From a virus: DNA of 37,658 nucleotides. Positions 5,032 to 36,870 of this stretch are shown piece after piece (position 1 is the first letter of the stretch; each line of letters starts with the position of its first letter). Below the pieces are notes generated by a model. The model was not told the origin of the DNA. It worked only from the letters and a program-made list of their open reading frames with translations, and made no database searches. The position numbers and the translations under genes are program-made. The stretch covers positions 1 to 37,658 of the IMG/VR virus record IMGVR_UViG_3300042560_001435; one strand, 5' to 3'.

Positions 5032-6027
5032 ATGGAAACAAATATCATTTTAGAAGGCGACTGTATTGAATCAATGAAGAAGTTGCCGGATGCTTTTATC
5101 AACACCTGCGTTACTTCACCACCTTACTATGGTCTTCGTGATTACGGAGAAGATGGTCAGATTGGTCAAGAAGAAACACCACAACAATACATTGATAAGA
5201 TGGTTGAAGTGTTTGCAGAAGTTCGTCGTATTCTTCGTGATGACGGAACTCTTTGGTTGAATCTTGGTGATTCATATGCTGGAAGTGGCAAGGGTGCTTA
5301 CGGAGATGGTGTAGTTAGATTATCAGAGAAGTCAAAGATTCAAGCTGGTAGTAAAGGAACTACAACTGGAACATTCAAGAAGACAAGTGTCCAAACTTTG
5401 AAACCAAAGAATCTTATGGGTATTCCGTGGAGAACTGCAATGGCTCTCCAAGAAGATGGTTGGTATCTTCGTCAGGATATTATTTGGGCAAAGCCAAACC
5501 CAATGCCTGAGTCAGTCACGGATAGATGTACAAAGGGACACGAGTATATTTTCTTGATGACGAAAAACCCTGATTATTATTTTGACTACCAAGCTATCCG
5601 AGAACGTTCTGTTTCAAAGATGGACAGAGAACATCTTTCTCCGATTGGTGGAAAGAAGAACGCACTAAAACCTGGTTCGTATTCAGGTAATGCTCCAGAG
5701 AACGATGGGTTTAGAAACAAACGTTCTGTGTGGAATGTTCCTATCCGAGCAAAGTCATACGAAGGAGCACACTTCGCAGTTTACCCCGAAGACCTTATCA
5801 CACCTTGTGTTCTTGCTGGTGCTCCCGAAGGTGGTATTGTTTTTGACCCGTTCTTTGGTGCAGGAACAACTGGTGCAGTTGCAATCAAGAACGGAAGAAC
5901 TTACATTGGTTGTGAGTTGAATCCAGAGTATATTCAAGTTGCAAAGAATCGTCTTGACCCAATTCATCTCAAGGATGAGAATATGAAAAAGGCAGACGGT
6001 ATTATTCAAAGTTACTTCCAATTCTAA
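5032..6027 (+). CDS. DNA amino-methyltransferase, beta-class order (copy 1)
   Basis: A 331-residue N6-adenine/N4-cytosine methyltransferase. Catalytic motif IV, TSPPYY, is at residues 28-33, and SAM-binding motif I, DPFFGAGTT, is at 272-280, giving the beta-class order. The middle part (about 80-240, with GIPWRTAMALQEDGWYLRQDIIW) carries the variable target-recognition region. The SPPY form is frequent in N4-cytosine enzymes but does not settle the base. It is paralogous to the next gene along its whole length, with differences concentrated around residues 82-125 and 190-230. No cognate endonuclease is present. It follows a TTTCGTATATT promoter candidate and ends overlapping the next ATG by one base. 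Confidence 0.88.
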   Translation: METNIILEGDCIESMKKLPDAFINTCVTSPPYYGLRDYGEDGQIGQEETPQQYIDKMVEVFAEVRRILRDDGTLWLNLGDSYAGSGKGAYGDGVVRLSEKSKIQAGSKGTTTGTFKKTSVQTLKPKNLMGIPWRTAMALQEDGWYLRQDIIWAKPNPMPESVTDRCTKGHEYIFLMTKNPDYYFDYQAIRERSVSKMDREHLSPIGGKKNALKPGSYSGNAPENDGFRNKRSVWNVPIRAKSYEGAHFAVYPEDLITPCVLAGAPEGGIVFDPFFGAGTTGAVAIKNGRTYIGCELNPEYIQVAKNRLDPIHLKDENMKKADGIIQSYFQF

Positions 6028-7004
6028 TGATAGATACCAACGTTATATTGGAAGGTGATTGCATCCAATCTCTGAAATCATTACCGGAAGGTATTGTAAA
6101 TACGTGCATAACTTCGCCACCTTATTACGCTCTTCGTGATTATGGTGCGGATGGACAAATTGGATTGGAAAAAACACCTGAAGAATATGTCCAAAAGTTG
6201 GTAGAAGTATTCAGAGAAGTAAAACGTGTGCTCCGTGATGATGGAACTCTTTGGTTGAACTTGGGAGATAGTTATGTATCAAACCCAGGAGACCGAACAA
6301 AAGTTGGTGGGTTCCAAGCTAATCCAGATACTGACAGGGCGAAGGCAGAATCTGCAATGTCTCACAATAAGAAAACTGCTGGTCTAAAACAAAAAGACCT
6401 CATCGGTATTCCGTGGATGGTTGCATTTGCTCTTCGTAATGACGGGTGGTATCTTCGTCAGGATATTATTTGGCACAAACCAAATCCTATGCCTGAATCT
6501 GTATCGGATAGATGTACAAAATCTCACGAGTATATTTTCCTTCTTTCCAAGTCAAAGACATATTACTATGATGCGGAAAGTATAAAGGAACCGGTCAAAC
6601 AAGATTGGGGAACAAGAGATAGAACAAACGGAAAGTATCACAATACCGGAACTGGCTTGAATCCACATACTGGATTACAAAAGTCATATGAGAAGGCAAA
6701 CAAACGTTCTGTTTGGTCTATCACAACAAAACCATTTCACGGAGCACACTTTGCAACTTTCCCACCTGATTTGATTGAACCTTGTGTTATTGCAGGTTCA
6801 CCTGAAGGTGGAATTGTATTAGACCCATTCTTCGGGTCAGGAACAACTGGTTTGGTCGCAATGAGAAATAATAGAAAATATCTTGGATGTGAACTAAATT
6901 CTGAGTATATTAGTATTGCGAATGAAAGATTGAAGCCAGTAGAAACAGAAATCAAAAACAAAGAAATTACAGAATCTCTTATTCAGAATTATTTTCAATT
7001 CTAA
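6027..7004 (+). CDS. DNA amino-methyltransferase, beta-class order (copy 2)
   Basis: A 325-residue paralogue of the preceding gene. Motif IV, SPPYY, is at residues 30-34 and motif I, DPFFGSGTT, at 266-274. Long blocks are shared with copy 1, for example DGTLWLNLGDSY, DGWYLRQDIIW and KPNPMPESV. The inserts near 84-120 and 186-228 differ, as expected if the two enzymes recognise different sites after duplication. The ATG overlaps the previous TAA (TAATG), which suggests translational coupling. An alternative is that one copy now acts mainly as a partner or has lost activity, but all visible catalytic motifs are intact. Confidence 0.88.
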   Translation: MIDTNVILEGDCIQSLKSLPEGIVNTCITSPPYYALRDYGADGQIGLEKTPEEYVQKLVEVFREVKRVLRDDGTLWLNLGDSYVSNPGDRTKVGGFQANPDTDRAKAESAMSHNKKTAGLKQKDLIGIPWMVAFALRNDGWYLRQDIIWHKPNPMPESVSDRCTKSHEYIFLLSKSKTYYYDAESIKEPVKQDWGTRDRTNGKYHNTGTGLNPHTGLQKSYEKANKRSVWSITTKPFHGAHFATFPPDLIEPCVIAGSPEGGIVLDPFFGSGTTGLVAMRNNRKYLGCELNSEYISIANERLKPVETEIKNKEITESLIQNYFQF

Positions 7005-11061: not shown

Positions 11062-11963
11062 TGCCTTCTTCGCGAATTTCCTTTTCACAATATCAAATGT
11101 GGAAGGGATGTCCTCATCGTTGGAAACTAAATTACATTGATAAGGTTTCTGTTCCTTCTCCATCAATCGCTCTCGTGTTTGGAACTGCCATGCACGAAGT
11201 TCTTCAGATGTATGTAGAGATGTTATATCGTTCTACTGTTGAAGAAGCAAACTCACTTCCACTTGAAGACCTTCTAAAAGAAAAGATGGGTGTGGAGTAT
11301 AAGAAGATGTTGACTGAAAACAATGATGAACACTTTTCGCATCGCGATGAAATGCAAGAACACCTAATGGATGGTATTGAAATTATCCGTTGGTTCAAGG
11401 CACACCGTGAAGAGTTCTTTATGAAGAAGGGTTGGGAACTTGTTGGTATTGAAAAGCCAATCAACATCATTCCTGTTGAGTCAAATCCAAATGTTCGTCT
11501 TGTTGGTTTCCTCGACTTGGTGATGCGAGATTTGAAAACCGGTAAGATTCATATCTACGATTTCAAAACATCAACAAGTGGTTGGAACAAATACACAAAG
11601 GCAGATAAGGTAAAGACATCACAACTTGTTCTTTACAAAACATTCTATGCCAAACAATATGATATTCATCCTGATGATATTGAGATTGAGTATCTTATTT
11701 TGAAACGTAAGATAGCCGAAGATGCCGAATATGCAGCGATGAAGAAACGTGTTCAACGATTTGCACCTTCTCACGGTAAGGTTTCACAAACTCAAATCCT
11801 GAAAGAGATTCAGATATTTGTTGAAACGGCATTTGATTCAGAAGGTAATAAGAGAACAGATATTTACTATCCACCAATTGAAGGCGAAAAGAAAAAGAAT
11901 TGCCGTTGGTGTGAGTTCAAAGATAGAGATGATTTATGTCCAATAAAGAACAGGGTTCAATAA
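11061..11963 (+). CDS. PD-(D/E)XK exonuclease, Cas4/RecB-like, Fe-S type
   Basis: A 300-residue nuclease of the Cas4/AddB-type PD-(D/E)XK group. Visible elements: GTAMHE (41-46, motif with His45), GFLDLV with Asp152, YDFKTS with Asp167 and Lys169, and QLVLY (188-192, QxxxY motif). Cys17 in KGCPHRW and Cys281, Cys284 and Cys293 in CRWCEFKDRDDLC have the spacing of a [4Fe-4S] cluster that staples the nuclease domain. A role in phage recombination or DNA-end processing is likely from family and neighbours. No helicase domain is fused and no CRISPR array is present. The start overlaps the preceding stop, as does its end with the next ATG. Confidence 0.88.
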   Translation: MPSSRISFSQYQMWKGCPHRWKLNYIDKVSVPSPSIALVFGTAMHEVLQMYVEMLYRSTVEEANSLPLEDLLKEKMGVEYKKMLTENNDEHFSHRDEMQEHLMDGIEIIRWFKAHREEFFMKKGWELVGIEKPINIIPVESNPNVRLVGFLDLVMRDLKTGKIHIYDFKTSTSGWNKYTKADKVKTSQLVLYKTFYAKQYDIHPDDIEIEYLILKRKIAEDAEYAAMKKRVQRFAPSHGKVSQTQILKEIQIFVETAFDSEGNKRTDIYYPPIEGEKKKNCRWCEFKDRDDLCPIKNRVQ

Positions 11964-12994
11964 TGAAGTACGCATATACATTTGATGATATTCAAATTAT
12001 TCCAAAGTATTCAGAGATAGAAAGTCGTAGTCAATGTGAACTAAGAACTAAATTCACAAAAAGATATGTTATCGGAACACCACTTGTCTCTTCACCGATG
12101 GACACAGTTTCAGATTCAAAGATGTGTCTTGCTATGGCATCACATGGTGGTGTTGGTGTAGTTCATAGATTCATGAGTATCGGTGAACAATCAAACCAAT
12201 CTCGTAAGATAAAAGAACAAGAGAAGTTAGTTGCTGCGGCTATTGGTGCAACAGGTGATTATCAAGAACGTGCACAAGAACTTATAAACGCAGGTGTTAT
12301 TGTTCTTCTTATTGATGTTGCTCACGGTAACACAAAACAAGTAAAAGATGCAATCAAGTGGTGTAAGGAAAATCTTCCTGAATATGTTGATGTGATTGCC
12401 GGTAATGTTTCCACTCGTGAAGGTGCAAGAAATCTGGCAGAGTGGGGTGCCGATGCAATTCGTGTTGGTATCGGTAACGGTTCTCTTTGTGAAACAAGAA
12501 TTAGAACTGGAGTTGGTATTCCACAAGTAACTGCACTAATTGAATCTATTGCAGGAGTGGAAGAAACAGGACTTGATATTCCTATCATTGCAGACGGTGG
12601 AATCAAGATGACAGGCGATGTTGCAAAGGCACTTTCACTTGGTGCAGATTCTGTGATGTTGGGTTCACTTCTTGCAGGGACTCGTGAATCCCCCGGTGAA
12701 ATTCATCGAATGGGAATGTGGCCTAATGAACAACTCTTCAAGAAGTACCGTGGTTCTGCCTCTGCTGAAGTAAAGCAAGTTCATGGTTTAGAAGAAAAGA
12801 ACGTGGAAGGTAATTCAAAGTTGATTCCTTACAAGGGTAAGGTTGAACGTATTATCAATGACATCAAGGATGGGGTTCGTTCTTCAATGTCTTATGTAAA
12901 TGCAAAGAACATAACAGAATTCCATGTAAATTCTGAACACGTTTTGATTACACAGAATGGTTTGATTGAAGCCAAACCACACTTGTTATTGTAA
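11963..12994 (+). CDS. IMP dehydrogenase/GMP reductase-like enzyme lacking CBS domains
   Basis: A 343-residue TIM-barrel enzyme. The ATG at 11963 (MKYAYTFDDIQIIPKYSEI) overlaps the previous TAA and has AGGG upstream; the ATG at 11936 lies inside the nuclease gene. Key parts: SSPMDTVS (43-50), active-site Cys176 in GIGNGSLCETR, DGGIKMTGD (211-219) and GSLLAGTRESPGE (234-246). The C-terminal KLIPYKG and VRSSMSYVNAKN parts follow IMPDH more than GMP reductase. The CBS (Bateman) pair that normally interrupts the barrel after about residue 75 is absent. The usual Thr after the catalytic Cys (CTTR) is Glu here, and the flap shows KYRGSAS rather than GMGS. It should steer guanine nucleotide supply during infection. 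Confidence 0.85.
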   Translation: MKYAYTFDDIQIIPKYSEIESRSQCELRTKFTKRYVIGTPLVSSPMDTVSDSKMCLAMASHGGVGVVHRFMSIGEQSNQSRKIKEQEKLVAAAIGATGDYQERAQELINAGVIVLLIDVAHGNTKQVKDAIKWCKENLPEYVDVIAGNVSTREGARNLAEWGADAIRVGIGNGSLCETRIRTGVGIPQVTALIESIAGVEETGLDIPIIADGGIKMTGDVAKALSLGADSVMLGSLLAGTRESPGEIHRMGMWPNEQLFKKYRGSASAEVKQVHGLEEKNVEGNSKLIPYKGKVERIINDIKDGVRSSMSYVNAKNITEFHVNSEHVLITQNGLIEAKPHLLL

Positions 12995-16377: not shown

Positions 16378-17526
16378 ATGAGAAAAAAAGTTTGGTATGC
16401 TCCGAATAAGTTTGAATCTTACGGAGAAGAAGAAATCAAAGCAGTCGAGGAATGTTTACGAGATGGATGGATTGCAGGATTTGGTCCGCGGTCTATAAAA
16501 TTTGAAGAGATGGTTGCAAAATACTTCGGTAAGAAGTATGGTGTATTTGTAAACTCCGGTTCATCCGCTTGTTTACTCGCACTCGCTTCCCTACAACTCC
16601 CAAAGGGTAGTGAAGTAATCACACCATCTTGTACCTTCTCAACAACAGTTGCACCAATGGTTCAACTTGGTTTGAAACCAATCTTCTGTGATGTTGGACT
16701 AAACACATACGTTCCATCAGTTCAAGATGTGATTGCTCTAATCAATGAGAATACCCGTGTCATTATGATTCCAAATCTCATTGGTAATAAGCCAGATTGG
16801 AAAGCAATCCGCCAACACCTTATCAGTATAAATCGTGAAGATATTATTCTTATCGAAGATTCTGCTGATACAATGACTTACACAGAAGAGACTGACATCT
16901 CAACAACATCGTTCTACGCTTCTCACGTAATCACCGCTGGTGGTTCTGGTGGTATGGTAATGTTCAATAGTGAAAAGTTCAGAGACGTTTCTCTTCAGTT
17001 CCGTGATTGGGGTCGTATTGGAAATAACGCAGAAGAAGTTGACCAACGTTTCAATCACCAAGTAGATGGAATCCCTTATGACTTCAAATTCCTTTATGGT
17101 GTTCTTGGATATAACTTCAAGTCATCTGAAATGAACGCGGCATTTGGTCTTGTTCAAATGGAAAAGTTGGATAAGTTTGTTGAAATTCGTCGGAACAACA
17201 TCAAGAGGTATTTGGAAAATCTACAAGACGTGAAAGAGATTCTTCTTCCAGATGATTCGATTGAACCGAACTGGTTGGCAATTCCACTTCAATATGAAGA
17301 TCGTCTTGGACTTCTTACTTATCTCGAAGAACAAGATATTCAAACTCGTGTTACATTTGCAGGAAACATTACACGTCATCCTGTTTACCGTGAATATCTA
17401 CAACCATTTCAAAACGCAGATACAATTATGAAAAATGGTTTTCTTCTTGGTGCCCATCATGGAATGTCAATTGATGATGTAGATTATGTGTGTGACCAAA
17501 TAAAGGAATATATCTCTAATAGATAA
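16378..17526 (+). CDS. PMP/PLP-dependent sugar 3-dehydratase, ColD/RfbH-like
   Basis: A 382-residue fold-type I enzyme of the DegT/DnrJ family. In SFYASHVITAGG (178-189), the position that is the PLP-binding lysine in aminotransferases is His183. This is the hallmark of NDP-4-keto-6-deoxyhexose 3-dehydratases RfbH (E1) and ColD. EDSAD (160-164) supplies the pyridine-binding Asp161 and VNSGSSAC (58-65) the phosphate loop; FRDWGR follows as in RfbH. RfbH's 2Fe-2S cysteine cluster after FRDWGR is missing, and the length equals ColD (about 388), so the ColD-like reaction on GDP-4-keto-6-deoxymannose is favoured. That substrate would be made by the Gmd gene at 19837. Nucleotide specificity is inference. 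Confidence 0.8.
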   Translation: MRKKVWYAPNKFESYGEEEIKAVEECLRDGWIAGFGPRSIKFEEMVAKYFGKKYGVFVNSGSSACLLALASLQLPKGSEVITPSCTFSTTVAPMVQLGLKPIFCDVGLNTYVPSVQDVIALINENTRVIMIPNLIGNKPDWKAIRQHLISINREDIILIEDSADTMTYTEETDISTTSFYASHVITAGGSGGMVMFNSEKFRDVSLQFRDWGRIGNNAEEVDQRFNHQVDGIPYDFKFLYGVLGYNFKSSEMNAAFGLVQMEKLDKFVEIRRNNIKRYLENLQDVKEILLPDDSIEPNWLAIPLQYEDRLGLLTYLEEQDIQTRVTFAGNITRHPVYREYLQPFQNADTIMKNGFLLGAHHGMSIDDVDYVCDQIKEYISNR

Positions 17527-21686: not shown

Positions 21687-22637
21687 ATGAAGAAAATAGT
21701 TTACGTTACTGGGTGTCTTGGATTTATAGGTTCATATGTAACCCGTGCTTGTTTAGAACGAGGTTGGTATGTAAAGGGTATTGATAAGATGACATATGCT
21801 GCAAATAAAGATTTGCTTGATGAGTTTAGTTCGTATGAAAACTTTTCATTCACTAATTGTGATATAAACGATTTAGAATTTTTGTATGACTGTGATTATG
21901 TTATCAATACCGCCGCTGAAACTCACGTTGGTAACTCTATTGTAAAGAGTGATGATTTTGTTTACTCAAACATAAATGGAGTTCATAAGTTGTTAGAACT
22001 TCTGAGGAATTATCGCCAAGAAAATAATAGAACACCGATACTTTTACATTTCAGTACAGACGAAGTTTACGGTGATATATCTGAAGGTTCTCATACAGAA
22101 ACAGATATGTTGAAGCCATCCAATCCATACTCTGCTACAAAAGCTGCGGCAGATATGTTGATACTTGCTTGGGCAAGAACATACAATACTCCTTATGTAA
22201 TTATAAGACCTACAAACAATTATGGAATTGGTCAGTATGTTGAAAAACTAATTCCAAAGGCAGTAAAGTATCTTAGTATTGGAAGACAGATTCCTCTTCA
22301 TAATAATGGTGAACCATTTAGAAATTGGTTACATGCAAAAGATTCTGCGAGTGCCGTTATGACTATAATTGATTCCGATGTCAAGAATGAAATCTTCAAC
22401 ATCTGTGGTGGACTTGAGAAGAAAAATATAGAAGTGGTGTCCGTCATAATAAAGGAAATGTTTGGAGATGTAAATATAAATGACTATATTGACTTCTCAA
22501 CAAAAAGACCTGGAATTGATGTTAGATACGCACTTGATGATTCAAAGTTGAGGAGTCTTGGTTGGAAGCCACAAATGGATTTTGAAAAAGAAATTGTGAA
22601 GATTGTAAATCACTACAAGGGAAAATTCATATGGTAA
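21687..22637 (+). CDS. RmlB-like NDP-sugar 4,6-dehydratase
   Basis: A 316-residue extended SDR. NAD-binding GCLGFIG is at 9-15 (GxxGxxG). AAETHVGNSI, then HFSTDEVYG (about 121-129, with the Asp-Glu acid/base pair) and PYSATKAAADML (Tyr148, Lys152) match dTDP-glucose 4,6-dehydratases. RPTNNYGIGQYVEKLIPKAV and NGEPFRNWLHAKD give the substrate side. A 4-keto-6-deoxy sugar nucleotide is the expected product. No RmlA, RmlC or RmlD is visible, so the host must supply dTDP-glucose if that is the substrate. Overlaps the following HAD gene by seven bases. Confidence 0.85.
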   Translation: MKKIVYVTGCLGFIGSYVTRACLERGWYVKGIDKMTYAANKDLLDEFSSYENFSFTNCDINDLEFLYDCDYVINTAAETHVGNSIVKSDDFVYSNINGVHKLLELLRNYRQENNRTPILLHFSTDEVYGDISEGSHTETDMLKPSNPYSATKAAADMLILAWARTYNTPYVIIRPTNNYGIGQYVEKLIPKAVKYLSIGRQIPLHNNGEPFRNWLHAKDSASAVMTIIDSDVKNEIFNICGGLEKKNIEVVSVIIKEMFGDVNINDYIDFSTKRPGIDVRYALDDSKLRSLGWKPQMDFEKEIVKIVNHYKGKFIW

Positions 22638-22966
22638 TTTACATAGATATAGATGAAACAATTTGTCACAGTCCAAATGTTCCTGATTATACAATTAGTC
22701 ATCCAATAGTTGAAAACATAGAAAAGGCAAATGCACTTTACGATGAAGGTCATACGATTGTGTATTGGACAGCTCGTGGTACAAAGACTGGAATTGATTG
22801 GAGAGAACAAACTGAAAAGCAATTCAAGGAGTGGGGAGTGAAGTATCACGACCTAAAGTTTGGTAAACCAAACTATGACATATTTATAGATGACAAGAAC
22901 ATGAATACAAATGATTGGAATAACAAAATTATAGAAGAAATGTTTTATGATAGTAGAACAAGTTGA
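22631..22966 (+). CDS. HAD-family small phosphatase
   Basis: A 111-residue HAD protein. IDIDETIC holds nucleophile Asp6 and acid/base Asp8; YWTARGT gives motif II; FGKPNYDIFIDDK gives motif III Lys and motif IV acidic residues. The short length and WTARGTKTGIDWREQTEKQ pattern match small sugar-phosphate or polysaccharide-cluster phosphatases without a cap domain. A sugar phosphate is the likely substrate, perhaps the product of the NeuB-like or cyclase branch. It overlaps the next gene by 20 bases. Confidence 0.8.
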   Translation: MVIYIDIDETICHSPNVPDYTISHPIVENIEKANALYDEGHTIVYWTARGTKTGIDWREQTEKQFKEWGVKYHDLKFGKPNYDIFIDDKNMNTNDWNNKIIEEMFYDSRTS

Positions 22967-23483: not shown

Positions 23484-24581
23484 ATGTTAAAGGTTATGGT
23501 ACAAAACAAAAACGAAATATTTGAGAATCTATTTGTTCTTGAAGCTGCAAACAATCACTGGGGTTCAATTGAACGTGGTAAAAAGATTGTTCGTGAGTTT
23601 GCAAAAGTAGTAAAGGCGAATGGAGTAAAGGCAGCAATCAAACTTCAATTCCGAGACGTAGATAACTTTATCCACAAAGATTTCAAGTCATCGGGTGAAG
23701 GTGAAGAACTAACGAAACTCCCAAAGAGACTTCGTTATATTCAGAAGACTGCAAAGACAAAACTTTCCTATGATGAGTTCAAGGAATTGATTGAGTACAT
23801 TCGTAAACACGATTGTATTCCAATGTCTACTCCGTTTGATGAAAAGTCTGTGGACTGGTGTGTTGATATGAACTTGCCGATAATCAAAGTCGCAAGTTCA
23901 GATATAAATGATTGGTTTCTTTTGAAGAAGATTGCTTCAACAAAAAAGCCAGTTATTATTTCAACCGGTGGTGCAAATGATAAACAAATTGATGACGTGA
24001 TTAGATTCTTCACTAACAGAGATATTCCAATTGCAGTGAATCACTGTGTATCAAAATATCCAAGTGAAGACAATGAATTAGAGTTGAATCAAATTGATTA
24101 TCTAAAAGAGAGATACCCAAATCTCGTCATAGGTTTATCAACACACGAGTACCACGACTGGCATTCATCAATGTATATTTCATATGCAAAAGGTGCAAGA
24201 ACGTGGGAACGTCATATTGATATTCCATATCCCAATGGTCACGAACAAAAAGAAGTTTCATCTTATTGCTCTCTCCCACATCAAGTTGATGAGTGGTTCA
24301 AAGCATTCAACAAATCCGCAATTATGTGCGGTGATACCCACGGAAAACGTCGGGTGATAGATGAAAAGGAATCAAATTACCTCCACTCACTTTACCGTGG
24401 CCTTTACTTGAAGAGAGATATAAAGGCAGGGGAAAAAATTTGTGCAGAAGATTTGTATTCTGCGATTCCATACTTGGAAGAAAAAGGTCAAGTATCATCA
24501 CGGGATTTTATTGAGGATGATGCCACGGCAAAAGTTGACATCAAAAAAGATTCACCATTGTTGAGAGAAAGCATACAATAA
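23484..24581 (+). CDS. NeuB-like nonulosonic acid synthase with SAF domain
   Basis: A 365-residue protein of the N-acetylneuraminate/pseudaminate/legionaminate synthase family, which joins phosphoenolpyruvate to a hexosamine. The barrel carries LEAANNHWGSIE (usual form EIGxNHxG), AIKLQF, IIKVASSDIND, VNHCVSKYPSEDNELEL and IGLSTHEYHDW, then ARTWERHID in place of the usual EKHF. A C-terminal SAF/antifreeze-like domain is present (LYRGLYLKRDIKAGEKICAEDL). Divergence at the EKHF and NHNG positions suggests an unusual substrate. No CMP-sugar synthetase (NeuA) or 2-epimerase is in the window. The end overlaps the TPP-enzyme start by one base. Confidence 0.85.
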   Translation: MLKVMVQNKNEIFENLFVLEAANNHWGSIERGKKIVREFAKVVKANGVKAAIKLQFRDVDNFIHKDFKSSGEGEELTKLPKRLRYIQKTAKTKLSYDEFKELIEYIRKHDCIPMSTPFDEKSVDWCVDMNLPIIKVASSDINDWFLLKKIASTKKPVIISTGGANDKQIDDVIRFFTNRDIPIAVNHCVSKYPSEDNELELNQIDYLKERYPNLVIGLSTHEYHDWHSSMYISYAKGARTWERHIDIPYPNGHEQKEVSSYCSLPHQVDEWFKAFNKSAIMCGDTHGKRRVIDEKESNYLHSLYRGLYLKRDIKAGEKICAEDLYSAIPYLEEKGQVSSRDFIEDDATAKVDIKKDSPLLRESIQ

Positions 24582-26317
24582 TGAAAGTTTCGGATATTGT
24601 AATTCAGTTCTTACAAGAAAAAGGAATAGACACAACATTTACAATTTCGGGTGGCGGGTGTATTCATCTAATAGATTCACTCAGAAAATCTAATATGAAT
24701 GTTGTTTGTCCTCACCACGAACAAGCTGCTTTGATTTCTGCAGAAGGTTATACTCGTATGAACGGAAAAGTTTGTGCGAGTGTTGTAACAACAGGGCCAG
24801 GTGGAACAAATGCAATCACGGGTCTACTCGGTTTATGGTTGGATAGTATTCCATCAATAATCATATCAGGTCAAGTTCCAACAAATCAATTGTCAGAAGG
24901 AACCGGTTGTAGACAAATCGGAGACCAAGAGTTTGATATTGTGAGTGTTGTAAAACCGATGACGAAATATGCGACGATGGTAAAGAATCCAATGGATATT
25001 TACAAAGTATTAGAACAAGCATATTCAACTGCAACATCAGGAAGACCAGGACCAGTATGGATTGACATTCCACTTGATGTTCAAGGTGCTAACATAAATG
25101 AAGAAGAGTGTTATCACTACGAAGTGTTTGATGAAGACCCACACTTTATGTCCACATATGTGACTGATTTTGAAAAGATGGTGACATCTGCAAAGAAACC
25201 ACTCGTTATTGTTGGTAATGGTATAAGACTTTCAGATACAACAAACGAACTTCAAGACTTCTTGGATAAGACAGGAATCCCAATCGTAACTGGTCCACAT
25301 TCTGGTGTTGATGTTGTTGATAACACGTATCAGTATTATGCTGGAAGAATTGGAATACTTGGTCAACTAACATCAAACCAAATTGTTCAAGATGCAGACT
25401 TACTTATTTGTCTTGGAACAAGATTGCCCGTGAAGATGACTGGTTATAATATTCCAGAATTCTCACCGAACTCAAAAAAGATTATGGTAGATATTGATAG
25501 GTCTGAAATTAGAAAACACAAATTCCAAATTCATCTTCCGATAATTGCAAACCTAAAAACATTCTTCCAAAAGATCTCTGATTTGAAATATGATGTTGAT
25601 ATTTCAGATTGGCAAAATAAAGTATTGGAACTTCGCAGTGGGCAAAAGTATTATCATCCAAAACACGAATCGCTAAAAGAGTATGCGAGTTTTTATTATT
25701 TGATGGATAAGGCACCGAAGATATTTGGTGATACTCCAATCGTAACAAGTAACGGAACTGCACACGTAGTAACACTTCAGAACTATCGTATCAATAAGAA
25801 CCAACGTGTATTTACAAACGTTGGTTGTGCAAGTATGGGATATGGACTACCGGCAGCAATCGGTGCCTGTGTTGCTAACAATAACCAACCTGTTATTTGT
25901 ATAGAAGGTGATGGTAGTATAATGATGAACCTACAAGAGTTACAAACTCTGAAGGGATATAATCTTCCTGTGAAGACAATCATTGTAAACAACGATGGTT
26001 ATCTTTCAATCAAACTAACACAAGAGTCATTCTTTGCCGGTCAAGAATTTGCAAGTGGTAGAGAAAACGGAGTTACAATTCCTGATTTCAAATCTGTGTC
26101 ATCCGCATTTGGATTACCATACAACTCAATCAAATACAACTCAGAAATTGAAGATGGTTTGAAATGGATGATGGAACAAACTGAACCTTGTATTCTTGAA
26201 GTCTTCACTCATCCAAAAGAAAGACACGAACCAAAAGTAACTCATAAGGGAATTGATGAGAACGGAAAGATTATTCCAGGAACTCTCACCGATATGTTTA
26301 TCTCGGAGACATTCTAA
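24581..26317 (+). CDS. acetolactate-synthase-like TPP enzyme
   Basis: A 578-residue thiamine diphosphate enzyme with the three-domain ALS/pyruvate-oxidase layout. Catalytic Glu47 lies in PHHEQAALISAEGYTR, TTGPGGTNAITG follows, and the C-terminal TPP/Mg motif is GDGSIMMN from residue 443 with NNDGYLSIKLTQ after it. Homologues in polysaccharide loci ligate a two-carbon unit to a keto sugar (YerE of yersiniose synthesis is ALS-like) or decarboxylate keto acids. The ColD/RfbH-like enzyme in the same operon makes a YerE-type role conceivable. True branched-chain amino-acid synthesis is less likely, as no regulatory subunit is present. Overlaps both neighbours by one base. Confidence 0.88.
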   Translation: MKVSDIVIQFLQEKGIDTTFTISGGGCIHLIDSLRKSNMNVVCPHHEQAALISAEGYTRMNGKVCASVVTTGPGGTNAITGLLGLWLDSIPSIIISGQVPTNQLSEGTGCRQIGDQEFDIVSVVKPMTKYATMVKNPMDIYKVLEQAYSTATSGRPGPVWIDIPLDVQGANINEEECYHYEVFDEDPHFMSTYVTDFEKMVTSAKKPLVIVGNGIRLSDTTNELQDFLDKTGIPIVTGPHSGVDVVDNTYQYYAGRIGILGQLTSNQIVQDADLLICLGTRLPVKMTGYNIPEFSPNSKKIMVDIDRSEIRKHKFQIHLPIIANLKTFFQKISDLKYDVDISDWQNKVLELRSGQKYYHPKHESLKEYASFYYLMDKAPKIFGDTPIVTSNGTAHVVTLQNYRINKNQRVFTNVGCASMGYGLPAAIGACVANNNQPVICIEGDGSIMMNLQELQTLKGYNLPVKTIIVNNDGYLSIKLTQESFFAGQEFASGRENGVTIPDFKSVSSAFGLPYNSIKYNSEIEDGLKWMMEQTEPCILEVFTHPKERHEPKVTHKGIDENGKIIPGTLTDMFISETF

Positions 26318-26946
26318 TGAAAGTAATTCTAACAGGAAGTACCGGCGGTATTGGTTCTGCAATTCTAAATGAGTTGAAACAAAAATCAATTGATGTTGTA
26401 GAAATAAATTCATCAGAAATTGATTTTTCAAAAGACTTTGATATTCGTAGTGTTCCTGTTGATGGTCTTATTTATTGTGCAGGAATCAATCACGTAAATG
26501 TTTATGACCAAATAAATGACCAACAAATGATTGACATTATGAATGTCAATACATTTGGATTCATACGTCTCTGTCAGAAACTACAATTCAATGAAGGTAG
26601 TAATGTAATCGCAATTGGTTCTCTTTACTCAACGGAAACAAAAGCTGGTAGACTATCTTACACAATGTCTAAACACGCAATGTATGGTGCAGTAAAAACT
26701 CTTGCCCTTGAAATGGCATACAACAAAGTAAAAGTGAATATGGTATCCCCAGGTTTTGTAGATACCCCACTTACTCGTAAGAATAATACCGATGAACGAA
26801 TACAACAACTAAATAATTCTATTCCGTTAGGACTAACTTCCGCTTCCGAAATTGGAAAAGTTTGTGTATATTTGATGACAATCAATAATGCAATTACAGG
26901 TCAGAACATCATCGTTGATGGTGGTTATAGTTTAGTTGGAGTATGA
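26317..26946 (+). CDS. short-chain dehydrogenase/reductase
   Basis: A 209-residue classical SDR. TGSTGGIGSA (6-15) is the cofactor glycine motif, YCAGINHVN the NAG-equivalent, IGSLYS the serine, and YTMSKHA gives Tyr115 and Lys119 of the catalytic triad. VNMVSPGFVDTPLT and ITGQNIIVDGGYS are standard later motifs. It is about 35 residues shorter than FabG. It probably reduces a keto group made by the TPP enzyme just upstream (overlap one base) or the cyclase product downstream. Confidence 0.85.
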   Translation: MKVILTGSTGGIGSAILNELKQKSIDVVEINSSEIDFSKDFDIRSVPVDGLIYCAGINHVNVYDQINDQQMIDIMNVNTFGFIRLCQKLQFNEGSNVIAIGSLYSTETKAGRLSYTMSKHAMYGAVKTLALEMAYNKVKVNMVSPGFVDTPLTRKNNTDERIQQLNNSIPLGLTSASEIGKVCVYLMTINNAITGQNIIVDGGYSLVGV

Positions 26947-26947
26947 T

Positions 26948-27970
26948 ATGCAAACGTTCAATATCAATGGTGTAGAACTCACGGCAGATGACGAGTTCAA
27001 ATCTACATTCACAATAAATTCACACCCCGAACCTTACACGGTTCACTTCAAACAGTTTCAGAATTCATTTGAAGAAACAGATGTTGTTCTTGTTGATTCA
27101 AATGTCCAACGTCTTTATTCGGTAAACCACGATAAGATGATTGTTGTTGAAGCAACTGAAGAAAACAAATCAATGGAAAGTGTGTTGTCTATTTGTCAAC
27201 AACTTCTCCAATTCAATTTCAATAAAGGAAACCGACTTGTTGTAATCGGTGGTGGAATAATTCAAGACTTGGGTGCGTTCACTGCAAAGGTTTTCAAACG
27301 TGGAGTTGATTGGGTATTCTATCCAACAACATTACTTTCACAATGTGATAGTTGTATTGGCGGAAAGACTGCATTGAACTTCAGTTCTTATAAGAACCAA
27401 CTCGCACTTTTCTCTGCACCATCCGAGGTTATCATTGACACAAATTTTCTGAAGACTCTTACTGAAGAAGATATGACTTCTGGCTACGGTGAAATTGTCA
27501 AACTATTTCTTACCGGTGGTCAACGTTATGTTGATATGATTGACTCGGATAACATTGATGAACTTATCTTTCATTCACTCTCAATAAAGAAAGCCGTCAT
27601 AGAGTATGATGAGTTTGAGAAATCAGAAAGACGTTCTCTCAATTATGGTCATTCATTTGGACACGTAATTGAACCTATGACTAACTACACAATTCCTCAC
27701 GGTGAAGCCGTTATGTTGGGTATAGAAATAATCAATCAACTCTTTGATAAGAATCCAACAATAACAAACTTGGTTTCAAAGTTTACATCGTTGGAAAAGA
27801 TTAGAGAACTTGATTTGAAGAAATTAGTTGATGGAGTAAAGACAGATAAGAAGGCAGTCAAAAACTTCATAACATTTGTAAGAGTTTCAGAACCAGGAAC
27901 AACAATCTTTACTGATACAAAATTTGATGAAACTTTGGTGGAGAAAGTAAATGAAGTATTTGCTAATTGA
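26948..27970 (+). CDS. sugar-phosphate cyclase, 3-dehydroquinate-synthase-like
   Basis: A 340-residue protein. The ATG at 26948 has TTGGAG six bases upstream; a TTG at 26936 overlaps the SDR gene. VIGGGIIQDLG (about 99-109) binds NAD; FYPTTLLSQCDSCIGGKTALN is the DHQS-family signature. Expected metal ligands are Glu182 (GYGEIVK), His235 (NYGHSFGH) and His251 (PHGEAV). Family members cyclise DAHP (DHQ synthase), sedoheptulose 7-phosphate (EVS/EEVS/DDGS) or glucose 6-phosphate (2-deoxy-scyllo-inosose synthase). With a kinase gene overlapping its 3' end and an SDR before it, cyclitol formation is a better guess than the shikimate pathway. It overlaps the kinase by 20 bases. Confidence 0.85.
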   Translation: MQTFNINGVELTADDEFKSTFTINSHPEPYTVHFKQFQNSFEETDVVLVDSNVQRLYSVNHDKMIVVEATEENKSMESVLSICQQLLQFNFNKGNRLVVIGGGIIQDLGAFTAKVFKRGVDWVFYPTTLLSQCDSCIGGKTALNFSSYKNQLALFSAPSEVIIDTNFLKTLTEEDMTSGYGEIVKLFLTGGQRYVDMIDSDNIDELIFHSLSIKKAVIEYDEFEKSERRSLNYGHSFGHVIEPMTNYTIPHGEAVMLGIEIINQLFDKNPTITNLVSKFTSLEKIRELDLKKLVDGVKTDKKAVKNFITFVRVSEPGTTIFTDTKFDETLVEKVNEVFAN

Positions 27971-28901
27971 TTTCGGTGCTTCATTTCTAAAAGTTGTAGA
28001 GTATGATTCAGACACAGAGTTATACTCTAACAATTATTCAGTACCGTCGCCATTCAAACATTCAAATACAATAACAAAAGATGAACTGAGAAATCTTCTT
28101 CAATCAGTCGTTTCCAAACACACTCACATAGAACGAATTGTTATCTGTTCAATTCTCGGCGGTTTCTACAATGGTGATACATATAATTCTTGGAAATCAA
28201 AAGAATCTGGGGTTGCAACTTCTTGTATGATTAGTGGTCTCTTTCACGGAGAAGAAACATTCCACGTTCACGAACATCAATCAAAATCACTGAACATCAA
28301 AGACTATGAAACAGGATTGAAACTTCTCGGTCATTTTGATGGGAAAGAAATTTATAGTATATTGGGTGATACAGATTGCGTAATAAATTCTGTAAGACTT
28401 ACCGAAAATGATGTTTTGATAAATATGGGAACAGGTTCACAAGTGGCAACAAAGAACTCTCGTAAATCATTCATACCAAGTGGACGGACACTAAACGTGT
28501 TCTACAATTTCTTTTCTGAACTTGGTATTGATATGTTTGAAGTTATGAGTGAATTATCTCTTGATGATTTGAACTCTGCAACATTGACCGTTGACCTGAA
28601 TGTGTTTCCGCAATCATACAAATATAATAACGGTGGTTCTATCAATGGAATAAACGAAAATGGATTCACACCAAAGAATCTTATTTCATCTATTCTGAAA
28701 AGTTATGTTGACCAATACCACGAGTTTGTTTCAGATTCAAAATACTCTCGTATTATTTTGACGGGTGGTATTCCTAAAAAGATACCAGCCATTCACGAAT
28801 ATCTTTCTCTGAAGTATGAAAATAAGAAAGTAATAGTTGATAAAAATGAAATTGAAAATACTCATCGTGGCATTGTGAATTTTATTGAGGAATATCTATG
28901 A
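27951..28901 (+). CDS. ASKHA-fold sugar kinase-like protein
   Basis: A 316-residue actin/hexokinase-fold ATPase. YLLIDFGASFLKVVEY at the N-terminus is the phosphate-1 loop with Asp7, VLINMGTGSQVAT in the middle is phosphate-2, and IILTGGIPKKIPAI near the C-terminus is the adenosine motif. The layout resembles carbohydrate kinases of the FGGY/ROK groups, although it is shorter than FGGY enzymes (about 450-500). Next to a sugar-phosphate cyclase, it may phosphorylate the heptulose precursor or the cyclitol product. The substrate is not determined. Confidence 0.75.
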   Translation: MKYLLIDFGASFLKVVEYDSDTELYSNNYSVPSPFKHSNTITKDELRNLLQSVVSKHTHIERIVICSILGGFYNGDTYNSWKSKESGVATSCMISGLFHGEETFHVHEHQSKSLNIKDYETGLKLLGHFDGKEIYSILGDTDCVINSVRLTENDVLINMGTGSQVATKNSRKSFIPSGRTLNVFYNFFSELGIDMFEVMSELSLDDLNSATLTVDLNVFPQSYKYNNGGSINGINENGFTPKNLISSILKSYVDQYHEFVSDSKYSRIILTGGIPKKIPAIHEYLSLKYENKKVIVDKNEIENTHRGIVNFIEEYL

Positions 28902-29740
28902 GAATCTTGATTACGGGTGCAAACGGATTCATTGGTAGAAACTTGGCAAAACTTCTTGATGCCAATAATATAATTGAGACGGTATCAAGAAAAGAGTTAG
29001 ACTTACTAGACTCCGAGAAGGTAAAAGAGTTTTTCAATGGTAAACATTATAACCTTGTAATTCATACCGCGGTTGAAGGTGGAAGAAGAACAGTTCCAGA
29101 TGGTGAGGAAATGGTCTACCGAAATGTTCTTATGATTTACAATCTATTGGAGAACCAAGATAGTTTTGACCGAATGATAACATTTGGTTCTGGTGCAGAG
29201 TTAGACCGTCGGTACAACATCAATTTAGAAACTGATACGAACAGAAGATACCCAATAGATTTCTACGGTATGTCAAAGAGTATAATCAACAAACTCTGCC
29301 AAGTAGAACCAAAGTTATACAACTTCAGAATCTTCAATTGTTTCTCATCAGATGAATCACCTGATAGAATGATTCGTGGTAATGTAGAAAAATATCTCCG
29401 TAAAGAACCAATGACTTTATTCTCAAATCGTCTAATGGATTTCTTTTACATAGAAGATTTGACTTTGATGATTGAATACTTTTTGAGAACACCACAGTTT
29501 CCATACAAGGTAGTGAACTGTTCATACCAAGATCAAGTTCGGCTCAAAGATATTCTTGAGTTTATAAACTCATTGGATGATTATAGTGTCCCAATCATTG
29601 AGCAAAAAGATGATTCTGTAAATACGATAAATGCATCACCAACTGATTATGTTGGAAATAGCCCAAGTCTTCCATTGGATTTTCTTGGTTTGAAAAAAGG
29701 AATACAAAGAACATATGAAAAAATACGGAGTAGTTTATGA
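28898..29740 (+). CDS. NAD-dependent epimerase/dehydratase, GDP-fucose-synthase-like
   Basis: A 280-residue extended SDR. TGANGFIGRNLAKLL gives GxxGxxG; IHTAVEGGRRT, FGSGAELDRR and DFYGMSKSIINKL (YxxxK) follow. The GSGAE-DR pattern and the A-x-GG-R loop recall GDP-L-fucose synthase (Fcl), which converts the Gmd product to GDP-fucose by epimerisation and reduction. ColC-type epimerase-reductases are close relatives and equally plausible. It is slightly short (Fcl about 320). Start and stop each overlap neighbours by four bases. Confidence 0.75.
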   Translation: MRILITGANGFIGRNLAKLLDANNIIETVSRKELDLLDSEKVKEFFNGKHYNLVIHTAVEGGRRTVPDGEEMVYRNVLMIYNLLENQDSFDRMITFGSGAELDRRYNINLETDTNRRYPIDFYGMSKSIINKLCQVEPKLYNFRIFNCFSSDESPDRMIRGNVEKYLRKEPMTLFSNRLMDFFYIEDLTLMIEYFLRTPQFPYKVVNCSYQDQVRLKDILEFINSLDDYSVPIIEQKDDSVNTINASPTDYVGNSPSLPLDFLGLKKGIQRTYEKIRSSL

Positions 29741-34678: not shown

Positions 34679-35800
34679 GTGATACGATTACGTGATCTTA
34701 TAAAAGAATTCTCCGTAAGCAAGGGAGATTTTACCAGATTCAGAGGTTCTTGGATTCTTTCTCTTGGGATGAAAGACGGCAACACAAATAAGATGGTAAA
34801 GTCACATGAAGATATTGTATCTAAACTGTGGGCAGAAGACCGTAAAAATGGTGGTTACAAGAAACGAGAAATAGATGATTCGTCCGTAAAGAAACTGATT
34901 GATGGGTATGTAAAATCGGTTCTGTCAGGTGGAACAAACCACAGTACCGTTGGAGGCGATATTCATATGACATTCTATTTCAGAGATAATGATGTAACAA
35001 TTGGATTGTTTGACTTTGGTGTATTATATGATAACCCATACAAATACTTCTCACCGAAAGATTTTAGATTCAGAAGCGATGATAGTTTTATATCATCCCA
35101 CTACGAAAGTGAAAGAAACATAATGGATGAAGTAGTAGTTGGATGGATACGTGGTCGTGGTGGAAAAGGACAATTCGGAATAAACCCAAAGATAGTTTTT
35201 AGTTTAGACAATGTTCTAAAAATTGATGGAATCTTTGTCAATCAAAAAAGACGTGGCGAAGGATATGGTAAATTACTATATGATACCATAATGAAGTATT
35301 CGGATGCATTGGTTAGTGATAGTCAATTATATGAAGGTTCGTTTGGACTTTGGACAAAATACATACATGATAAATCAAAGTTTTTTGGTGTCATGTATAG
35401 AACGGAGAGATACAGTTTTGTTTTTCCAATTCCACCGGGGGCTAAACTTACACCATCCTTTTTTGGAAATAGTGGCGATTTAGAAACTCCAGCTGGATTT
35501 GTATCTATTAGTAAGAAGGTACCGTCATCAGTCACTTCATTCTCTAAAAAGATAATGTCACTTGGTGTTGGGGATTTAGATGTATTTGATGCATCAAATT
35601 CAAAGTTTACTAAAGCCGTGGAATCTGTATTAGACGATTCCATATCAATAGATGAAGTAATGGAAGAATTTGGGTCATCAGAATTAGGTTTGAAATTCGT
35701 TTATAAGAATGTAAAAACTCCAAAAGTATTATTCTGTTTTGCAGATGCACTTGTATTAGTAAAAGAAGTCGGTGATGGTTTGGATTGGGAATTACTTTAG
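34679..35800 (+). CDS. GNAT-like acetyltransferase with capsid-targeting-like N-terminus (copy 1)
   Basis: A 373-residue protein starting at GTG 34679, with GGGGA upstream. It begins MIRLRDLIKEFS, the shared targeting-like peptide. The central part has IDGIFVNQKRRGEGYGKLLYDTIM; RGEGYG at 192-197 fits the acetyl-CoA motif R-x-x-G-x-G/A of GNAT enzymes. DALVSDSQLYEGSFGLWTKYI follows, as in phage GNATs where a conserved Ser-Leu-Trp lies near the acceptor site. The C-terminal 110 residues are unassigned. The whole gene is paralogous to the next. An ejected protein that acetylates a host target is an attractive inference, by analogy with T4 internal proteins, but is unproven. Confidence 0.65.
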   Translation: MIRLRDLIKEFSVSKGDFTRFRGSWILSLGMKDGNTNKMVKSHEDIVSKLWAEDRKNGGYKKREIDDSSVKKLIDGYVKSVLSGGTNHSTVGGDIHMTFYFRDNDVTIGLFDFGVLYDNPYKYFSPKDFRFRSDDSFISSHYESERNIMDEVVVGWIRGRGGKGQFGINPKIVFSLDNVLKIDGIFVNQKRRGEGYGKLLYDTIMKYSDALVSDSQLYEGSFGLWTKYIHDKSKFFGVMYRTERYSFVFPIPPGAKLTPSFFGNSGDLETPAGFVSISKKVPSSVTSFSKKIMSLGVGDLDVFDASNSKFTKAVESVLDDSISIDEVMEEFGSSELGLKFVYKNVKTPKVLFCFADALVLVKEVGDGLDWELL

Positions 35801-35819
35801 GAGAAAATCTTGATAAAAA
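35744..35819 (+). repeat. direct repeat at gene 3' end (copy 1)
   Basis: These 76 bases match 36814-36889 with four mismatches. The repeat covers the last codons of the GNAT-like gene, its stop, the AGGAG ribosome site and the following TTGATAAAA start. The similarity is higher than in the rest of the paralogues, suggesting a recent duplication or gene conversion at this end. Confidence 0.9.
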
Positions 35820-35842
35820 TATTTCCATACAAACGGGGATAA
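35810..35842 (+). other. 11-codon chimeric mini-frame, duplication scar
   Basis: TTG ATA AAA ATA then codons for FPYKRG and stop. It has the start region of the Ntn-hydrolase-like gene (36880: TTG ATA AAA) joined to the end of the 34476 gene. AGGAG lies six bases before the TTG. It is best read as the junction left by tandem duplication of the GNAT-like gene, possibly still translated to keep ribosomes coupled to the next GTG start. Confidence 0.7.
35822..35842 (+). repeat. direct repeat, FPYKRG-stop segment (copy 2)
   Basis: Second copy of the 34656-34676 segment, with one base changed (G to A in the third position of the proline codon). It ends two bases before the GTG of the second GNAT-like gene. 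Confidence 0.85.
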
Positions 35843-35844
35843 CT

Positions 35845-36870
35845 GTGATAAAATTGAGTGAGATTATAAAAGAGATTGAGGTAAATCAAGGTTCCTACAA
35901 TTTTGATTGGGATAGTTGCTTTGATTTTATTCCGAATAGTGTATTTAATTTTTACTTGGATAATATAAATGATATTCAAAATAAAATAGCCGACGGTTAT
36001 TTTAAAACACCAGAACAACTAAAATCTCGTGTTGATAAATTTGTAAAGTCTATGGCTTCTAATTCAAACGGATCTAAAAAAATCAGTGATAATCAGTTTT
36101 TATTAAAATATGAATATGGTCAAAAGATAGTATTCATCATTTATGATTTTGGAAAGTTTTATGATAAAAAATTTTCAAGAGTTTCTGAACCAGAAAAGGA
36201 TATATTGGTTGGTTGGATTTATGGAACAGGTGGAACATCTGAGTTCGGTATTCATCCGAAAAAAATCTTTCAACTAAATAGGGTTTTTCGTATTCACGGT
36301 AGTTATGTTGATAAAAAACAACGGGGTAAAGGATACGGTAAAATACTTTATAATGCAATCATAAATGATGTAGACGCACTTGTTAGTGATAAAATTTTAT
36401 ATACAGGTTCATTTGGATTGTGGACAAACTACATATTCAATAAATCAAAATTCTTTGGTATAGTTTATGAATTAGAAAACACAAGTATAGTATTACCTGT
36501 AAAAAAAGGGGAAAAGATAGACAAGAAATCTGTTTCTACTTTCGGTCAAGATGGTTTTGTAGCTATAACACGCAACATACCTCCGTTTCTACAGAAAATG
36601 TCCAATGCATTGAAGGAAATAAATTTCAATTCACTGGATGTAATAGATTCATCTAATACAAAGTTTTCAACTAAAATACAGGATTTATTTGATGAATCAA
36701 CTTCTATGGATGATTTATTTTCAGAAGATGGTTCATATACCAATCCACTTACAGATTACTTACCGTATAAATGGAATGACCCTATATCTCCAAAGGCATT
36801 GATGTATTTCAAGGATGCACTTGTATTGGTAAAAGAAGTCGGTGATAGTTTGGATTGGCAACTACTTTAG
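35845..36870 (+). CDS. GNAT-like acetyltransferase with capsid-targeting-like N-terminus (copy 2)
   Basis: A 341-residue paralogue of the preceding gene. The GTG at 35845 is chosen because GGGGA lies five bases upstream and because the resulting N-terminus MIKLSEIIKEIEV aligns with copy 1; an in-frame start at 35785 would overlap the previous gene and spoil this. RIHGSYVDKKQRGKGYGKIL has RGKGYG at 160-165 as acetyl-CoA motif. DALVSDKILYTGSFGLWTNYI and the C-terminal DALVLVKEVGDSLDWQLL are nearly identical to copy 1. The N-terminal 110 residues diverge most, which may reflect a different target. Confidence 0.65.
   Translation: MIKLSEIIKEIEVNQGSYNFDWDSCFDFIPNSVFNFYLDNINDIQNKIADGYFKTPEQLKSRVDKFVKSMASNSNGSKKISDNQFLLKYEYGQKIVFIIYDFGKFYDKKFSRVSEPEKDILVGWIYGTGGTSEFGIHPKKIFQLNRVFRIHGSYVDKKQRGKGYGKILYNAIINDVDALVSDKILYTGSFGLWTNYIFNKSKFFGIVYELENTSIVLPVKKGEKIDKKSVSTFGQDGFVAITRNIPPFLQKMSNALKEINFNSLDVIDSSNTKFSTKIQDLFDESTSMDDLFSEDGSYTNPLTDYLPYKWNDPISPKALMYFKDALVLVKEVGDSLDWQLL

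Follow-up and report, generated by a model that had tools for sequence, protein, structure and literature searches.

A six-gene sugar module in a phage fragment

The IMG/VR virus record IMGVR_UViG_3300042560_001435 is a linear fragment of 37.7 kb (referred to as the window, i.e., the whole stretch of DNA analyzed here) in which the genes for a T4-type DNA polymerase, a clamp, and its loader precede a set of glycosyltransferase and sugar genes. Among the latter, four consecutive open reading frames (ORFs), all on the plus strand, encode a thiamine diphosphate (ThDP)-dependent carboligase (24581–26317; three Pfam TPP domains, E down to 2e-35), a short-chain dehydrogenase/reductase (SDR) (26317–26946; adh_short_C2, E 3e-30), a 3-dehydroquinate synthase (DHQS)-like sugar-phosphate cyclase (26948–27970; DHQ_synthase, E 5e-34), and a compact FGGY-type sugar kinase (27951–28901), which lacks a Pfam match and was assigned from a structure model. 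The last three are referred to below as cassette genes 1 to 3. Stops overlap starts across the four-gene run through TAATGA junctions, and the kinase start overlaps the 3′ end of the cyclase gene by 20 bases; the cyclase itself most likely starts at the ATG at 26948 and not at the listed TTG at 26936. The original prediction treated these four genes as one ordered, overlapping module, which is borne out by their coordinates, their junctions, and their recurrence in other genomes. The module is, however, larger than four genes. The conserved string has six, as it also includes a NeuB-like synthase of the 3g8r/SpsE-like subfamily with a SAF domain (23484–24581, plus strand; NeuB Pfam, E 1e-41) at its beginning and an NAD-dependent, RmlD-like epimerase/reductase (28898–29740, plus strand; Epimerase Pfam, E 3e-22) at its end.

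We scanned IMG/VR with the cyclase, kinase, NeuB-like, and ThDP proteins as queries, and found the full six-gene set in about 20 distinct phage contigs; the statement that no phage pathway with such a set is known thus fails in metagenomes. Independent contigs share the gene order of the string, which excludes a chance arrangement. Two of the four tested full-module contigs longer than 100 kb (G414 and G418) carry the gene for the major capsid protein Gp23, and therefore at least these are T4-type phages. Searches of the GenBank phage and plasmid collections yielded no homolog of the kinase, and for the cyclase and the ThDP enzyme only AroB and acetolactate synthase relatives. In a limited set of open-access papers, we found no published report of YerE-like genes in phages.

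The expected co-occurrence in bacterial loci was also found. In the kinase scan, the ThDP, SDR, cyclase, kinase, and NeuB genes lie together in one SAR11 genome and in marine metagenome-assembled genomes (MAGs), and are split over two short contigs in a second SAR11 genome. In Winogradskyella, an HMGL-type aldolase substitutes for NeuB alongside the ThDP, SDR, cyclase, and kinase genes (L019:7204-9941). Gene order in bacteria is rearranged relative to that in phages, which suggests that recent common descent is not all that keeps the set together. The module kinase is scarce in SAR11 (2 of 397 genomes), and of the 80 genome loci that the kinase scan returned, most have a kinase-like match alone; with the other module genes absent there, these loci were set aside as apparent ordinary carbohydrate kinases. 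GtrA and glycosyltransferase family 2 genes are found near the bacterial counterparts of the module. A simple hydropathy scan predicted no membrane segment in any ORF of the window, and the fragment thus shows no flippase or polymerase.

The carboligase and its predicted substrates

By far the nearest solved structure to the ThDP enzyme is JanthE (8rph; E 1e-105, 357 bits), a YerE-like enzyme that joins 2-oxo acids to ketones (PMC12188165), while the best acetohydroxyacid synthase (AHAS) reaches 4e-76 and 260 bits. The AHAS clade is split from it at 100/100 support, and the AHAS acceptor residues M250, R276, and W464 (IlvG numbering) are replaced by I, K, and T. An NNxGYxxIKxTQ stretch is common to the window enzyme and JanthE, although the window enzyme has a canonical GDG motif where JanthE has CDG. 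By these sequence comparisons, the enzyme is YerE/JanthE-like and not an acetolactate synthase, largely in keeping with the YerE-like role proposed for it.

The surrounding genes also resemble the yersiniose and erwiniose pathways of YerE, ErwE, and JanthE, which share the ThDP subfamily, a C3-dehydratase, a 4,6-dehydratase, and a terminal reductase-like gene. The phage systems differ in being phage-borne, in having NeuB or an HpcH/HpaI aldolase as the donor maker, and in the extra SDR-cyclase-kinase cassette. The ColD/RfbH-type C3-dehydratase that had been proposed to accompany the module is encoded at 16378–17526 (plus strand; DegT, E 1.5e-72), and is a pyridoxal phosphate (PLP) enzyme in which His183 replaces the PLP lysine. 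Its nearest PDB entry is CDP-4-keto-6-deoxyglucose-3-dehydrase 3bcx (E 4e-59), with ColD at about 1e-38, and the His of its SHVIT motif recurs in the corresponding enzymes examined from phages and bacteria that carry the module. Among the 47 phage ThDP loci with both flanks, 40 have a C3-dehydratase, which provides the genomic link to 3,6-dideoxy-4-ketohexose supply expected of a YerE-like enzyme, and 46 have the epimerase. The predicted product of the window enzyme is the 3,6-dideoxy-4-keto acceptor. An RmlB-like NDP-hexose 4,6-dehydratase gene (21687–22637, plus strand; TIGR01181, 302 bits against a cut-off of 365) is kept near NeuB in most related loci.

The possibility that the bacterial module ThDP enzyme merely serves ColD was rejected, because in some marine MAGs ColD has a second YerE-like enzyme as its neighbor, away from the module. 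A split transketolase of two subunits adjoins a ColD-like dehydratase at L152:4631-10448, L158, and L007:13036-14205, with a second YerE-like enzyme in the marine MAGs, and possibly represents another branched-sugar route.

The NeuB-like protein is closer to 3g8r (E 5e-57) than to N-acetylneuraminate synthases (about 1e-18) in the PDB, and falls below the equivalog cut-offs for pseudaminate synthase (139 of 340 bits) and N-acetylneuraminate synthase (130 of 400 bits). Its predicted product is a 3-deoxy-2-ulosonic acid. As the NeuB scan selects for NeuB, the scan with the ThDP protein gives the fair figure for a donor-making partner: all 28 distinct phage ThDP genes have one within about 3 kb (NeuB in 19, an HpcH/HpaI aldolase in 8, and both in 1). 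The two are unrelated families, either of which could yield a 4-hydroxy-2-oxo acid. YerE-like enzymes transfer acyl groups onto ketones, and ErwE favors 4-hydroxy-2-oxo acids (PMC12247030); the constant presence of NeuB or an aldolase therefore points to a donor that is longer and hydroxylated, like that of ErwE, and the two-carbon branch that had been proposed, which would come from pyruvate, appears unlikely. In several phages, an HpcH/HpaI aldolase stands in for NeuB in the vicinity of the ThDP gene (L244:6810-7616, L246:6817-7614, L314:6483-7280), and a small HAD-like protein follows the aldolase in L244, L245, L246, and L247. The window encodes a small HAD-like protein at 22631–22966, a possible phosphatase that is 74–78% conserved upstream of NeuB in several phages. 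The HMGL-type aldolase of Winogradskyella is a third unrelated candidate donor maker.

The SDR-cyclase-kinase cassette

The window cyclase scores below the cut-offs of both TIGR04425 (302.9 bits against 400), an AroB-related putative sugar phosphate phospholyase (cyclizing) family and its best match, and aroB (233.8 bits against 305). In trees that took in AroB, aminoDHQS, 2-deoxy-scyllo-inosose synthase (DOIS), 2-epi-5-epi-valiolone synthase (EEVS), desmethyl-4-deoxygadusol synthase (DDGS), and EboD references, the module cyclases group with TIGR04425-type phage proteins in a joint clade (100/99); these phage proteins themselves score just under the cut-off (354–377 bits). The cyclase is thus, as far as the phylogeny indicates, a sister group to TIGR04425 and lies outside AroB. 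It differs from the TIGR04425-type phage genes in its gene partners and in position K197 (numbering of the Aspergillus DHQS structure, as for all cyclase residues), which is K or R in the module cyclase and His in 28 of the 34 phage relatives found with SIS and CMP genes. These relatives belong to a second phage system without a ThDP enzyme, which consists of an SIS isomerase, an SDR, a TIGR04425-type cyclase, and a CMP-sugar synthetase fused to a cupin (L005, L006, L007, and about 30 further loci). An SDR gene lies directly upstream of 55 of the 65 distinct related cyclases.

Nearest-family names alone would make the ThDP enzyme and the cyclase an acetolactate synthase and an AroB that boost branched-chain and aromatic amino acid synthesis in the host. 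We give such ordinary auxiliary metabolism next to no credence, as it conflicts with both trees, the key residues, scores below every equivalog cut-off, and the glycan-gene context, and it was rejected by phylogeny. The cyclase outside the AroB clade, the TPP enzyme outside the AHAS clade, and the clear co-occurrence of the set elsewhere are the three points on which the original prediction could have fallen, and on each of them it held.

Despite its separate clade, the cyclase resembles AroB in its active site, with all 15 compared DHQS residues kept. K250, R264, and N268 are among those retained, and are unchanged in 67 of 67 distinct phage cyclase relatives, while one or another of them is changed in the DOIS, EEVS, DDGS, and EboD references (annotated plasmid genes, one or two per neutral-substrate type). 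We take these residues, from general knowledge rather than from a structure solved here, to map onto the window cyclase and to hold the substrate carboxylate. Their retention favors an acid substrate, and does not sit well with the cyclitol that the original prediction derived from a heptulose or hexose phosphate, a neutral substrate. In that model, the cyclase would act on sedoheptulose 7-phosphate or glucose 6-phosphate, the kinase and SDR would tailor the cyclitol, and the ThDP enzyme would separately add acetyl to the ColD product. The combination of cyclase, SDR, and kinase does resemble C7-cyclitol clusters such as that for acarbose. The EVS clade is also phylogenetically close to DHQS (PMC5133447), and the kept residues alone thus favor but do not prove an acid substrate. 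Given the changed residues in the neutral-substrate references and the 2-oxo-acid-making neighbor that is always present, however, we consider this route improbable.

A complete DHQS active site could also mean a second DHQS, working on host 3-deoxy-D-arabino-heptulosonate 7-phosphate (DAHP) or on the NeuB and kinase product, since the joint action of NeuB, kinase, and cyclase would recreate a substrate resembling DAHP. The resulting quinate- or shikimate-like acid would be a separate glycan decoration, independent of the ThDP branched sugar. The cyclase clade stands apart (100/99) even from the AroB of the same genomes, however, and five of the six module-bearing bacterial genomes have their own AroB. 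With the cassette also linked to the ThDP gene, this explanation seems just as improbable as the neutral cyclitol.

A PDB sequence search with the kinase returned nothing meaningful, and a Foldseek search against viral models gave weak ASKHA matches only (e.g., Hsp70). In the comparison of its structure model (pLDDT 87), however, the top rows were all FGGY, with a VIA Z of 21.0 to L-rhamnulose kinase 2cgk (root-mean-square deviation 4.3 over 302 residues). The model indicates that the kinase is FGGY-type with an overall FGGY fold. It shares the Asp and GTG motifs of FGGY carbohydrate kinases, and Asp140 is invariant in 8 orthologs, but it has 316 residues instead of about 480, and while the phage form has no Pfam match, a bacterial homolog matches FGGY_N below the Pfam cut-off.

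The kinase occurs only at loci with both NeuB and the cyclase, and is absent from all six aldolase-only cyclase loci, which are related to each other. This restriction fits the use of unphosphorylated sugars by NeuB, which would make a kinase necessary. In the main group of the ThDP tree, the locus types fall into separate clades (12 with NeuB but no cassette, 15 with the full set, 8 with the aldolase, and 5 and 6 with the cyclase but no kinase), whereas they are thoroughly mixed in the NeuB and epimerase trees; the deeper full-set loci L202, L208, L210, and L280 lie outside the main ThDP clade. The ThDP gene and the cassette therefore appear to move as a block between a constant NeuB and epimerase, and the cassette, SDR-cyclase(-kinase), is optional and pairs with a ThDP clade of its own. 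Such pairing suggests that the cassette alters what the ThDP enzyme handles, and hence that it probably acts before the coupling step.

The reverse order is also conceivable: the ThDP enzyme would join the NeuB-made chain to the 4-keto sugar, the kinase would phosphorylate the branch terminus, and ring closure by the cyclase would give a bicyclic, inositol-fused monosaccharide similar to bradyrhizose. A free terminal hydroxyl would suit an FGGY kinase, the cassette accompanies the whole branched-sugar gene set, and a ten-carbon bicyclic O-antigen sugar exists (PMC9912281). In its chemistry, which is the sole basis of the comparison, the phage sugar would resemble bradyrhizose and caryophyllose (C10 bicyclic or branched bacterial glycan sugars) by combining C-branching with a ring or a long chain. 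But the cyclase keeps carboxylate-binding residues that would not be needed, the ThDP clade changes with the cassette although a downstream step would not require it, and the loci retain an epimerase whose ketone substrate would have been consumed. We regard ring closure after coupling as unlikely.

A putative pathway to a C-branched sugar

On balance, and with moderate confidence, we favor the reading that the window carries the phage counterpart of a pathway by which bacteria make, for their surface glycans, a C-branched 3,6-dideoxyhexose similar to yersiniose, erwiniose, and caryophyllose, and in which the cassette probably remodels the NeuB-derived chain before coupling. The RmlB-like and ColD/RfbH-like enzymes would produce the acceptor, an NDP-3,6-dideoxy-4-ketohexose, and the NeuB-like enzyme would condense phosphoenolpyruvate with an aldose into a 3-deoxy-2-ulosonic (4-hydroxy-2-oxo) acid. 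The kinase would place a phosphate on the end hydroxyl of this acid, the DHQS-like cyclase would act on the phosphorylated ulosonate by oxidation, phosphate elimination, and rearrangement, and the SDR would set a carbonyl or hydroxyl. Next, the YerE-like ThDP enzyme would decarboxylate a 2-oxo acid and add the acyl anion to the sugar ketone to form a tertiary alcohol, after which the RmlD-like enzyme would reduce the new ketone. The choice of cassette would decide which version of the sugar is made.

Several points weigh against this pathway. With a NeuB-derived ulosonate phosphate, a DHQS-type reaction normally forms a carbocycle, which has no ketone at C2 and is not usable as a ThDP donor, so that a cassette acting before coupling needs a non-cyclizing phospholyase or a different donor. 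The reaction could stop after phosphate elimination, the ring product could serve as an acceptor or as a separate unit, or the ring could be closed after coupling. The segregation of ThDP clades could reflect simple linkage, and five NeuB loci with a cyclase have no recognized kinase. Further, some phages that lack a ThDP gene have SDR-cyclase pairs beside the SIS isomerase and CMP-sugar synthetase, 15 of 99 SAR11 genomes have a C3-dehydratase but not the module, and no CDP-glucose machinery was identified.

Elsewhere in the window are two tandem paralogous DNA methyltransferases (5032–7004; phrog_67), an IMP dehydrogenase/GMP reductase-like gene (11936–12994; phrog_9582) possibly involved in GDP-sugar or purine supply, and an adjacent pair of paralogous proteins (34679–36870), one with a weak acetyltransferase match.

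More tentatively, phages may possess an exchangeable cassette whose DHQS-type enzyme converts a NeuB-made, kinase-activated ulosonate into a new building block, either carbocyclic or end-deoxygenated, that YerE-like coupling attaches to a 4-keto sugar, giving an undescribed class of monosaccharides, and cassette swaps may change the glycan. The pathway favored here would place a complete set of higher-sugar enzymes, normally a feature of O-antigens, inside phage genomes, with new roles for the NeuB and DHQS folds and natural partner enzymes for ketone-accepting ThDP catalysts. With a ThDP-plus-cassette block that swaps between a constant NeuB and epimerase, the diversification of phage glycans would become directly testable.

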